64,000 nucleotides of DNA, taken from contig CAMDQN010000012.1 in assembly GCA_945905925.1 (NCBI GenBank), positions 1 through 64,000 of the forward strand, written 5' to 3'. Source of the DNA: Singulisphaera sp. GP187 (GTDB taxonomy: Bacteria > Planctomycetota > Planctomycetia > Gemmatales > Gemmataceae). Below the pieces are notes generated by a model. The model made no database searches and had not been told where the DNA came from. It worked only from the letters and a program-made list of their open reading frames with translations. Position numbers and translations under genes: made by a program. Below, one piece after another: positions 15,353 through 19,645 of the stretch (its first letter is position 1; each line of letters starts with the position of its first letter).

Positions 15353-17100
15353 CACTTCAGCCACTTCTCGAACCACGCGAGCATCTCCTTGCGCATCTCC
15401 GGCGTGTAGGTGTGGCCAATGTCCGGGTAGCGTATGCTCTTGAACTTCTCTTCCGCACCGACAGCCTTGAACAAGCTGCCGGCCTTCGCCTCGACCACCT
15501 TGATGCCGTCGGCCGGGCTGCCCGCGTCGAGATCGCCCGTCAGGAACAGCGTCGGACGCGGCGCGATCAGCGATACTACCGCTTCCGTGTCGAAGTGCTT
15601 CAACAGGCCGTTCACGAAGTAGTAGTTGCCGTGCTGCCTGAGTTGGCCGTGCTTGAGCAGGTTCTCGTAGCGTGTCAGGCACGCGACCCCGACCACGCAC
15701 GCGACGCGATCGTCCACGGCCGCGAGCCACCATGCCCGCGTGCTGCCCATACTCATCCCCGTTGCGCCGATCTTCTTCGTATCGACCTCCGAGCGCGTGC
15801 AGAGGTAGTCGAGCGCGACCTGATCGTCGCGCACAAACATGCCCCACAACGTGCGTCCGAACCAGAGATGATACTTGTGCAGGCTGTCCGCCTGCTCACG
15901 CGTGAGTTCGCGCGAACCGGCGGGTCCTTGACCGGCGCGGTCGCCGTACCACGCCGCGTCGGGCGCGAACACGACCCACCCGCGTTTCACGAACGTCACG
16001 CCCAGCGGTTCCTCCCCACCGTTGCTGTTCGGTTGCAACAGTTGGTGGTGATCGTAGCTCGATGAGTGCAGCCACAGAACGGTTGGCGCCGGTGCTTTCG
16101 CGCCGTCGGGAATCAGCATCAGCGCGGACATGATGCCGTCCACACCGTTGTCGATCCTGAGCCGTTCGAGCCGGAACCCCAGGCGAATTTCGGCGGACAC
16201 GAGATGCGCCTTCGGCTTCGCCGGGCGGGGTGGGAGGTCGCCGAGCGTCGCGACCACTTTCGCCTTCACGTCGGCGTGTCGCGTGTCCCAATCCGCTTTC
16301 GTGGCCGGTACCGGGAACTCCGGCACCTTCATTTTCTTGAACGCGTCAAGAACGAGTTTGTCGTTCGCGAGTTCGGCGTCGGTGTACGTTTTCACCGCGT
16401 CGGGGCCGCTCGCGGGCGTCTTCAGAACCGTGGGAGTGCGAAGCTTCAGTTGCCGCTTCACGCAATCGGTGACTGCGTCCGCGAGGCGCTCGTAACCGGC
16501 TGGCGTGTAGTGCGTGCCGTCCTTGCCGAGTAACTCCGCCGGGCCACCGTCTTGAACGATGCGGTACAGGTCATCGACCGGCACGCCGAGTTCGAGCATC
16601 ACCTTTACCGCTCGCTCGTTGTACACCTTCACGTCCTTGTCGAAGCGGTCGAAGTCGGCCTTGCGCCCCGCGTGCCGGTCGTCGATGATCGGCGTGGTGG
16701 TCGTGAACATCACGTCGGGCGTTTCTTTGCGCAGTCGCTCCACAATCGCCTTCAGGTTCTTCTCGTAGTCGGCCGGTGGCACCTGGAAGGCGTTGGTCTT
16801 CTTGCCGAACTTCAGGTCGTGTAGCCCGCAGTTGATGTGAACGACTACCGGCTTGCCGGCTCCGAGCCACGCGTCGAGCATCTTCAGCGTGTTCGCTGTA
16901 TCTCCGCCGTTTTCCTTCGGGCTGATGACCTCCGCGACGCCGTCGAGTTTCTTCGCCACGAGCGGCGCGTAACCCAGGCGGATCGAATCCCCGAGTAGCA
17001 GCACCTTTGGCAGTTCTTTTGGTGGCTGCGCCCGAGCGCCGGACGGGGCGAAAACGAGCAGAAACGCGAGAGAGGTGAGGCGAAGCATCGCAGTTTCCAT
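15352..17100 (-). CDS. SGNH/GDSL hydrolase fused to alpha/beta hydrolase
   Basis: A secreted 582-aa protein with a signal peptide (LAFLLVFAPSGARA). Residues about 30-220 are an SGNH hydrolase: GDSIRLGY holds the Ser, block III reads NCGLHDL (the usual GxND is GLHD, as in many planctomycete relatives), and DGTHYTPAGY holds Asp and His. Residues about 260-582 are an alpha/beta hydrolase with GMSMGSTRAWW (Ser), a GDLDAGSP acid and DIGHTYTPEM (His). Two esterases in one chain suggests action on multiply acylated polysaccharide, which is inference. The start could instead be the ATG at 17088, which has GGAAA upstream. The 5' end overlaps the TerB reading frame only in untranslated sequence. Confidence 0.88.
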   Translation of the reverse strand: METAMLRLTSLAFLLVFAPSGARAQPPKELPKVLLLGDSIRLGYAPLVAKKLDGVAEVISPKENGGDTANTLKMLDAWLGAGKPVVVHINCGLHDLKFGKKTNAFQVPPADYEKNLKAIVERLRKETPDVMFTTTTPIIDDRHAGRKADFDRFDKDVKVYNERAVKVMLELGVPVDDLYRIVQDGGPAELLGKDGTHYTPAGYERLADAVTDCVKRQLKLRTPTVLKTPASGPDAVKTYTDAELANDKLVLDAFKKMKVPEFPVPATKADWDTRHADVKAKVVATLGDLPPRPAKPKAHLVSAEIRLGFRLERLRIDNGVDGIMSALMLIPDGAKAPAPTVLWLHSSSYDHHQLLQPNSNGGEEPLGVTFVKRGWVVFAPDAAWYGDRAGQGPAGSRELTREQADSLHKYHLWFGRTLWGMFVRDDQVALDYLCTRSEVDTKKIGATGMSMGSTRAWWLAAVDDRVACVVGVACLTRYENLLKHGQLRQHGNYYFVNGLLKHFDTEAVVSLIAPRPTLFLTGDLDAGSPADGIKVVEAKAGSLFKAVGAEEKFKSIRYPDIGHTYTPEMRKEMLAWFEKWLK

Positions 17101-17137
17101 TGAGGTTCAGAACAGGTCGCTTGACTGGCCCGCGAGC

Positions 17138-17634
17138 ATGAGTAAATTGGGCAACGGTCGGAAAATATGTCACACACACGCGGAGTATACCACGGGCCTG
17201 TTCGACAGTCTGTTCGGCGGTGGCGAGAGCACCAAGGAATTATCCAAACAGGAGGGGTTCACCGGCATTCTGCTCGCGGCGGCCGCGGCCGACGGACACA
17301 TCAGCGAGGAGGAGGCGCAAGGGCTGTGGACCACGATCGGGCGGATGAAGCTGTTCGCCAACTTCACCCCGGACAAGTTCAACAAGATGATGGACAACCT
17401 GTTGAAGATCCTCAAAAAGGGTGGGCCGAACATGTTGGTGGACAAGTGCGTCCCGGCCATTCCCGACTCGCTACGCGCGACGGCGTTCGCCAACGCGTGC
17501 GAGATCGTGCTCGCCGACGGGGTGGTCGAGGATGAGGAACGTACCTGCTTGAGAAACTCCAGAACCGTCTGGAAATCCCCGGCGACGAGGCGATGGACAT
17601 CGTCAAGGTGATGGTCATCAAGAACCGCGGGTAG
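17138..17634 (+). pseudogene. TerB-like protein gene with frameshift
   Basis: The sequence GLFDSLFGG..., AAAAADGHISEEEAQ, ADGVVEDEER shows a TerB-family acidic helical protein. After DEER the frame breaks near 17542. A -1 shift restores YLLEKLQNRLEIPGDEAMDIVKVMVIKNRG and a stop at 17634, which is the expected C-terminus; without it the reading ends at 17611 with an unrelated tail. No slippery heptamer is visible, so this looks like a 1-nt deletion, a sequencing error, or less likely programmed shifting. The start is also odd. ATG 17138 adds a poor leader, and the homologous region begins at an ACG (17192) with GGAG before it. Confidence 0.7.
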
Positions 17635-17686: not shown

Positions 17687-19645
17687 TCACGTTGTGCGCG
17701 CCGGGCGGTTGCTCGCCCACTCCGTTTCCAGTTCACTTGCCGGTTTGCACAGGTACGGGCGCGACAGCGCCAGCCCGAGGAGGAACACTCCCAATCCCAC
17801 GAACGCCGGCAGCAGGTGCATGCCGTCCGTGTACCCGACCGCAAGATGCACCGCGATCGCGGGCACGTAACCCAGCGCCCCCGCCGGCAGCAGCGTCCAC
17901 CACAGCCACCCGTTCCCGGCCCGGTAGCCCCACAGCGCCGTAAGCAACAACAACACCCCCGTCGACACGAGTATCCCGCCAAACGTCGCCCGGTCGTGCG
18001 CCACCAACGGCACGAGCCGCGGGTTCGCCGCTTTCAGGTGTTCCGCCGTCGTTCCCATGAACTCCAAGTCTTCGTGAACGAACACCACCGTTACGCCGAC
18101 GGACGAGATCACCAGCCCCGCGCCCAGTATCGCCACGGCGTGGAACACCAACAGTAACTGCCCCCACTGCGCGAGCCGCCACGCCCGGTCCGTGCGGAGT
18201 TGAGGCGGTATCGCTGGCGTGTGCGTGCCGAGTTCGGAATGCACCGCGAGGAGGAGCAGTTGCAACAGGCACGCGGTGACGAAGGCGTGCAGCGTGTCGA
18301 GGTAGCCGAACCCGAGGAACAGGAAGAAACTGCCGAACCCGACGAACGCGGACGCGAACACCGCGACCATCGCCCAGTGGACCCCGCGGCGGATACCCCC
18401 GAGCGACAGCCCGACGTACAGCAACCCGATGGTGAACATCGGCCCGACGAGCGAGACGCGGTCGTGTGCCATGAACGCGATCAGTCGCGGGTTGATGGTC
18501 TGGAGTTGTTCGCGCGACATGCCGAGGAACGCTTCGTCGTAGGGCAGCACCACTCGCGTCGCGGCGATGCCCGTGGCAAGCACACCTCCGATGAACATTC
18601 CCAGGCCCATGAGGGCGGTCCAGAACCACGTCATCGCGGCGGGTCGCGCAGCGGGTTCACGTGGCGCGCCCGCCAAACGCCGGTACAGCACCGCGTCATT
18701 CGTTCGCTTCACCAGCCCGGGACCGTTGAACACGAGACCGCTGTCGATCTCGACCAGATTCGCCCCAGCATCGAGCAAAGAGAGTGCGTGTTCCGGTTCG
18801 TGGACCCCGCCCGCGGCAATAAGAGGAACCGTCGCGCCGAATCGTGCGCGGATCGCGAGCACGCACGCGACGGCGAGGTCTCGCACCGGCGCGCCGATCA
18901 CGGTTCCGCCGCCCGTGCGAGGGATCGCGCCGTCGATTAACACGCCCGCGACCCCGGCAGACAGACCAGCTTCGATCAACGGGTTGGTCGTCTCGGCCGG
19001 TGTGTCGGCGCCGACCACCAGTAGCACCGGCGTGCCGTTCGCGAACGCGAGCCACTCGCGGATCGTGTTCGCGAACGCGACTGGCACAGCAATCACCGAC
19101 GCATATGATCGCACGCCTTCGATCAACCTTCTGAGTTCGTCCCCGGTGTCGCCCGCGACGCGCACCAGCAGCGGCATCCCGAGGCGGCTCGCGGTGACCA
19201 GTTTGGGCGTAGCCGAGGACAATCCGAGGGGCGGGAAATCGTCGGGGAAGACGATGGCTTCGCCTGCGTCGTCGCGCTCGACGAGAGGTCGTGTGGGCGT
19301 CTCACTCAACCCGACGGGGCCGACATCGAGGAACCCGACGCCGAACCGCGCGAGAGCCGGGAGCGCGATGCCTTGCGGGTCGAGACCCGGCCCCAGCCCG
19401 ACCGGCGATGGGAACTCCGTTCCCAGCAACGACACCGCGAGCCGCGGGTCGGCGCGCATGTGCCCGAGCAGGTCGATTACCCGCGATCCGAGCGGCACCC
19501 GCGCCAGCCGACCCATGAACCCGAGCGAGAGCGCCCTCGCGGCGCGCGGTCGGAGCCGGTAGAGGAGCGGACGCGAGACGGTGCGGTAGAACCAATCTGG
19601 CATCAACGACCTGGTGATGGAGAAACGGGGCGCGGGTGAAGTCAT
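17687..19645 (-). CDS. DHODH-like domain fused to duplicated membrane domain
   Basis: A 652-aa protein. Residues about 15-325 resemble class 2 dihydroorotate dehydrogenase: an N-terminal helical part (WFYRTVSRPLLYRLRPRAAR), SPVGLGPGLDP, GVGFLDVGPV, PLIAAGGV and EIDSGLVFNGPGLV (FMN phosphate region). The GFNN and SPNTPG active-site elements and the FMN-binding Lys are not recognisable, so pyrimidine synthesis is doubtful. Residues about 338-632 form eight or so membrane helices in two tandem units of 156 aa, each with NPRLxxxxAHDR and GYxDxxH motifs. The start at M15 (MPDWFYRT) is possible. I know no named family with this fusion. Confidence 0.8.
   Translation of the reverse strand: MTSPAPRFSITRSLMPDWFYRTVSRPLLYRLRPRAARALSLGFMGRLARVPLGSRVIDLLGHMRADPRLAVSLLGTEFPSPVGLGPGLDPQGIALPALARFGVGFLDVGPVGLSETPTRPLVERDDAGEAIVFPDDFPPLGLSSATPKLVTASRLGMPLLVRVAGDTGDELRRLIEGVRSYASVIAVPVAFANTIREWLAFANGTPVLLVVGADTPAETTNPLIEAGLSAGVAGVLIDGAIPRTGGGTVIGAPVRDLAVACVLAIRARFGATVPLIAAGGVHEPEHALSLLDAGANLVEIDSGLVFNGPGLVKRTNDAVLYRRLAGAPREPAARPAAMTWFWTALMGLGMFIGGVLATGIAATRVVLPYDEAFLGMSREQLQTINPRLIAFMAHDRVSLVGPMFTIGLLYVGLSLGGIRRGVHWAMVAVFASAFVGFGSFFLFLGFGYLDTLHAFVTACLLQLLLLAVHSELGTHTPAIPPQLRTDRAWRLAQWGQLLLVFHAVAILGAGLVISSVGVTVVFVHEDLEFMGTTAEHLKAANPRLVPLVAHDRATFGGILVSTGVLLLLTALWGYRAGNGWLWWTLLPAGALGYVPAIAVHLAVGYTDGMHLLPAFVGLGVFLLGLALSRPYLCKPASELETEWASNRPARTT

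Follow-up and report, generated by a model that had tools for sequence, protein, structure and literature searches.

The window, by which we mean the whole stretch of 64,000 nucleotides that was analysed, carries on its minus strand a gene whose product joins a class-2 (quinone) dihydroorotate dehydrogenase (DHODH) fold, residues 15-335, to two homologous units of four transmembrane helices each (4-TM units), residues 339-632. The true start of the gene may be at 19603, because the family-wide start MPDW, a motif common to every row of our alignment of fusion proteins, corresponds to residue 15. The protein is laid out as follows.

17687..19645, minus strand: whole fusion gene, 652 aa plus stop by translation
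19460..19603, minus strand: residues 15-62, helices beginning MPDWFYRT, counterpart of the membrane-associating N-terminal helices of class-2 DHODH
18686..19435, minus strand: residues 71-320, a class-2 PyrD fold in the form of a (beta/alpha)8 barrel that lacks the catalytic and FMN-ring residues
18713..18823, minus strand: residues 275-311, best-kept barrel segment LIAAGGVHEPEHALSLLDAGANLVEIDSGLVFNGPGL, the former FMN-phosphate loop, with D301 for the class-2 Tyr
18242..18631, minus strand: membrane unit 1 (residues 339-468), predicted to form four TM helices
17750..18187, minus strand: membrane unit 2 (residues 487-632), a homologue of unit 1, likewise predicted to form four TM helices
18458..18466, minus strand: HDR motif of unit 1, residues 394-396, invariant in alignments
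17990..17998, minus strand: HDR motif of unit 2, residues 550-552, invariant in alignments
18287..18307, minus strand: GYLDTLH of unit 1, residues 447-453, with Y448 and H453 conserved
17816..17836, minus strand: GYTDGMH of unit 2, residues 604-610, with Y605 and H610 conserved

Directly downstream of the fusion gene, at 17075-17611 of the window on the plus strand, lies a TerB/DUF533-like gene with weak Pfam matches. A TerB-like tail is plausible in another frame from about 17543, with a stop near 17634, and this gene therefore looks frame-broken, by mutation or by assembly error. No conserved operon was found around the fusion gene: no neighbour recurs, and neighbours are shared in recent relatives only (gene calls around part of the loci came from a simple script).

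The N-terminal part of the protein matches DHO_dh (PF01180) at E 2.9e-16, with 60 bits against a cut-off of 27 bits. Its AlphaFold2 model is a complete and confident barrel (pLDDT 92.7, pTM 0.91), the best Foldseek matches of which in the PDB are all class-2 DHODHs (E 5e-14), with TM-scores of 0.76-0.78 against the class-2 structures from M. tuberculosis and E. coli, to which the scores are normalised. Sequence searches likewise point to class 2. The checks that a preliminary description of this locus had proposed came out as follows: profile searches of the two parts and structure prediction returned PF01180 and a class-2 DHODH fold for the barrel and neither a family nor a significant PDB match for the membrane part, and the search for a separate pyrD showed that the organism's own genome encodes a complete DHODH, with SCPNV as its class-1 motif (G000:C9, E 6e-72). 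The barrel resembles class-2 PyrD (PF01180, TIGR01036) in its N-terminal helices, its fold, the GP segment and, in most members, the GG phosphate loop, but it lacks the catalytic Ser, the active-site Lys and the flavin-ring/substrate Asn, it is joined to an 8-TM domain, and in our tree the barrels of the fusion family form a clade of their own, apart from both class-2 and class-1 DHODHs (support 100/99).

Apart from the serine base, the catalytic and flavin-binding roles of the class-2 residues considered here are general knowledge of the DHODH family. When 22 fusion proteins were aligned with 31 genuine class-2 PyrDs of related genomes, these residues, invariant or nearly so in the 31 PyrDs, proved absent or unconserved in all 22 fusion proteins, as had been claimed for the protein encoded here from its sequence. 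The losses comprise the K of AAGxDK, the GN of the TPxPQxGN loop, GFNN, NxSSPN, the active-site Lys (the K of VK), the TN pair and the Ser of GGLSG. The catalytic base of class-2 DHODH is a serine (PMC8520639, PMC10395836), and the corresponding Ser in NxSSPN is present in 31/31 class-2 PyrDs and absent from the fusion family. Since the catalytic and flavin-binding residues are missing throughout the aligned family and the genome encodes a separate class-1-type DHODH, the barrel is a conserved pseudoenzyme and not PyrD. One could still argue, from the PF01180 score and from the annotation of a relative as dihydroorotate dehydrogenase in the public record, that the fusion protein is a functional, highly diverged DHODH; this is very improbable given that all members lack the catalytic residues, that a DHODH is encoded elsewhere in the same genome, and that the barrel falls well short of all NCBIfam PyrD equivalog cut-offs (119.6 bits at best versus 267). 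Neither a normal DHODH active site nor an annotated family for the C-terminal part was found, and we consider the anatomy given above, together with the pseudoenzyme reading, to be very probably correct.

What survives in the barrel is structural: the PDWxY helices at its start (P16, D17, W18 and Y20 are invariant), the barrel glycines, the GG loop and a GPGLxKRxN segment. The claim that the FMN phosphate site is kept needs to be divided. The GG pair is retained in Gemmata and most relatives, but the invariant Tyr of the class-2 phosphate region is replaced by an equally invariant Asp (D301) across the fusion family, and the GG loop itself is gone from some Chloroflexota and Mycobacterium members (L164, L165, P0003). 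These observations bear on the idea that the barrel remains a binding domain for FMN or some other phosphate ligand, acting either as a ligand-gated sensor or as a new flavoenzyme that feeds electrons to the membrane domain. The near-invariance of GG (279-280) and of GPGLxKR among the first 22 family members, the purifying selection on the barrel sequence and the completeness of the predicted barrel speak for it; set against them are the loss of every flavin-ring and catalytic residue, the substituted Tyr, the members without a GG loop and the deletion of barrel strands in Opitutae seen in the fusion alignment, so that we think this idea quite unlikely.

The pseudoenzyme barrel is also shortened in several lineages. 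From about 320 residues it is reduced to about 270 aa in Opitutae, to 260 in one Chloroflexota genome and to about 190-200 aa in the Mycobacterium plasmid copy, which has lost the GG loop as well; it has been lost once altogether (L031), genome G038 having no barrel though its membrane domain nests within the fusion clade. Where the barrel is shortened or lost, the membrane domain stays about 39-50% identical, and in every comparison made the barrel was the less conserved of the two. Both halves are nonetheless under purifying selection: in pairs of close Gemmata species, dN/dS is about 0.25-0.35 in the barrel, and in the membrane domain it is 0.21-0.32. A PF01180 match occurs in every searched genome that holds a family member, with a strong separate copy in nearly all; in one genome of low completeness (G064/G402) the fusion copy is the only one seen. 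Among Gemmataceae, including this genome (G000:C9) and its relatives, the true PyrD is either class-1-type (SCPNV) or class-2 (SSPNT), differing between genera. The barrel is thus dispensable as an enzyme, yet it is not junk.

The preliminary description had spoken of a DHODH-like protein fused to a tandem-duplicated 4-TM module, and this stands, on the fold match for the first part and on repeat homology for the second. Units 1 and 2 are 30% identical over 120 aligned pairs, scoring 140 against 35 +/- 6 in 2000 shuffles (z = 17), and a profile-profile comparison of the halves across the family gives a probability of 99.7% (E = 2.6e-26). The repeated motifs are where they had been placed, with NPRLIAFMAHDR at 385, NPRLVPLVAHDR at 541, GYLDTLH at 447 and GYTDGMH at 604. 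A small correction concerns the arrangement, which is one of eight predicted TM helices with short helical loops, in two 4-TM units. One Asp, an HDR triplet, one Gly, one Tyr and one His are invariant in 36/36 4-TM units drawn from fused and solo proteins; in the present protein the conserved set is D370/D526, H394-D395-R396/H550-D551-R552, Y448/Y605 and H453/H610 (unit 1/unit 2). If the barrel is placed in the cytosol, like that of bacterial class-2 DHODH, this D...HDR...Y...H set would be extracytoplasmic; K and R agree with this placement, being more frequent in the cytosolic loops of the predicted topology. Judging from sequence and helix boundaries, the conserved residues may cluster in space. 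The membrane domain is most likely the conserved functional core of the fusion protein.

The preliminary description named no family with this design, and no annotated family was found for this domain. Pfam and NCBIfam gave no significant family over the 8-TM region, only isolated sub-threshold matches; single 4-TM units gave no recurrent Pfam family at E up to 10; and Foldseek found nothing in the PDB at E <= 0.001 (best E 0.12) and nothing significant among viral models. The PDB match of highest probability is to a subunit of the Ycf2-FtsHi complex of chloroplasts, 8xqw chain O (probability 0.95, TM 0.42, rmsd 9.9 A, E 0.13), and is probably a weak one. We compared the domain with the COX15/CtaA haem A synthases (PF02628) because of its 4+4 helix layout with His pairs: these enzymes, too, are composed of two halves with four TM helices each, eight in all, and have conserved His near one membrane face. 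Homology was rejected (hhalign probability 0.1%, E 0.7); PF02628 did not match the membrane units at E <= 10, and COX15/CtaA did not appear among the Foldseek matches. The 8-TM domain represents an unclassified family of membrane proteins whose conserved motif is strong.

The fusion is sparsely distributed in Planctomycetota, Verrucomicrobiota, Acidobacteriota, Chloroflexota, Bacillota and Actinomycetota, its rarity figures being approximate, since one genome per species was sampled and the first look was loose. Other Gemmata species, Planctomycetaceae, Pyrinomonadaceae and Holophagales of the Acidobacteriota, Opitutae, Pedosphaera and Akkermansia-labelled Verrucomicrobiota, and Chloroflexota all have it, with identities of about 40-84%. 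In Cytobacillus spongiae and Mycobacterium branderi the fusion sits on plasmids. On the former (L132:5146-6918) a fusion devoid of the catalytic residues is labelled 'dihydroorotate dehydrogenase' in the public record, and its gene is followed by genes for a PadR regulator and a chromate transporter; on the latter, pJCM12687 (L133:5398-6915), it is a 505-aa hypothetical protein with the 8-TM domain and no detectable DHO_dh match. In a tree of the membrane domain the fusion proteins form one clade, with the single loss of the barrel nested inside it. Rarity within each sampled phylum might suggest something without function, either a gene in decay that was fused by chance or an artefact of assembly; occurrence in six phyla and many genomes, with dN/dS well below 1, makes this extremely improbable. 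A frameshift or assembly artefact was rejected, the fusion being intact in many genomes. The exception is L030/L012 (G061, Gemmataceae), in which the fusion gene lies in two pieces in different frames, relatives having intact copies. Our literature searches did not find a fusion of a DHODH-type barrel with an 8-TM domain described, and the fusion is a previously undescribed bacterial membrane protein scattered across phyla.

The sister of the fusion clade in the membrane-domain tree is a clade of solo 8-TM proteins of about 310 aa, found in Gemmataceae, other Planctomycetota, Acidobacteriota, Verrucomicrobiota and Chloroflexota. Like the fusion, with which they mostly share 38-46% identity, they have two 4-TM units with the D/HDR/Y/H motif; unlike it they have no barrel, and most have a further pair of Cys in their first extracytoplasmic loop. 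No genome among the Gemmataceae searched held both forms. In 13 of 17 solo-bearing Gemmataceae genomes an FA_desaturase gene, of the membrane di-iron type and distantly like the CrtR beta-carotene hydroxylase, lies next to the solo gene, and that desaturase occurs in 1 of the 18 others (Fisher p = 2e-5, a value that ignores shared ancestry). Among Gemmataceae genomes with neither 8-TM form it is present in 1/10. The two genes are adjacent and co-directional, with the desaturase upstream in some genomes and downstream in others (L181, L184, L179, L183, L175, L178, L180, L174, L177 and L193, mostly Gemmataceae and one from Verrucomicrobiota). The desaturase (BCarotHydoxCrtR/FA_desaturase) belongs to a different protein family and is not a homologue of its 8-TM neighbour. 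It was also sought in the fusion loci and in nine genomes with the fusion or its barrel-lost derivative, where it was found in 0/9; a role deduced for the solo clade may hence not carry over to the fusion. Elsewhere, a cytochrome P460 gene directly follows a solo 8-TM gene in an Acidobacteriota genome (L189:4638-5198, G611). One Chloroflexota genome has two 154-aa frames (L167:170-631 and L168:1498-1959) with a single 4-TM unit and HVQ for HDR, near genes that look ferritin-like by eye; these single-unit proteins are likely relatives of the unit from before the duplication or from after a loss.

What, then, might the 8-TM domain do? The main rival to the reading that we favour is that it is a transporter, flippase or channel built of two parallel 4-TM repeats, in which the conserved polar residues would serve for substrate binding or proton coupling, with the dead barrel as a cytosolic regulatory domain. 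Transporters commonly have internal repeats, and charged residues conserved on one face of the membrane; transport genes are often scattered over phyla as this family is, and transporters make up most of the weak Foldseek list. Those matches, however, have E >= 0.1 and an rmsd near 20 A, no transporter family matches at a significant score, and in the predicted topology the strictly conserved residues lie at loop-helix boundaries on one side rather than through the membrane; moreover, the solo copies pair with the gene of an oxidative enzyme. Transport is thus conceivable but somewhat doubtful.

Our preferred explanation, offered tentatively, is that of an 8-TM domain working at an extracytoplasmic ligand site and capped in the cytosol by an inert DHODH-derived barrel. 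The working part would be the C-terminal pair of tandem 4-TM units, whose D...HDR...Y...H residues would form a binding site for a metal, for haem or for a small ligand of the lipid phase. The domain itself would contribute to oxidation or electron transfer outside the cytoplasm, acting on lipids or isoprenoids of the envelope. The N-terminal domain, descended from a quinone-dependent DHODH, has lost that enzyme's chemistry and may persist as a membrane-seated cap for folding, stability or regulation. A metal, haem or ligand site engaged in lipid or isoprenoid oxidation is the single most likely role for the membrane domain because the His/Asp/Arg/Tyr set lies at one predicted face and the solo proteins are linked to an oxygen-using membrane enzyme. 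It is nevertheless only one possibility, which we rate low since the desaturase linkage belongs to the sister clade; nor did the 8-TM domain match any haem- or metal-protein family or fold in our profile and Foldseek comparisons. The preliminary description had suggested a membrane redox or sensor protein, and the conserved set, taken with the desaturase linkage of the solo proteins, would seem to accord more with a role in redox chemistry or lipid oxidation than with one in sensing. A more elaborate and rather unlikely version is a new bacterial family of 8-TM membrane oxidoreductase subunits, arisen through duplication of a 4-TM unit, that would bind a pair of haems or metal ions on the extracytoplasmic side; one of its branches would serve membrane di-iron desaturases, and the other would have recruited a dead PyrD as a cytosolic docking or assembly domain.

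Taken together, these findings provide a clear example of a core metabolic enzyme that became a pseudoenzyme and has long been retained within another protein, in at least six phyla. The family is also a source of misannotation, as one relative is already recorded as a dihydroorotate dehydrogenase. Finally, the gene pair formed by the solo 8-TM protein and the CrtR-like desaturase offers a direct and testable handle on the function of the 8-TM domain.
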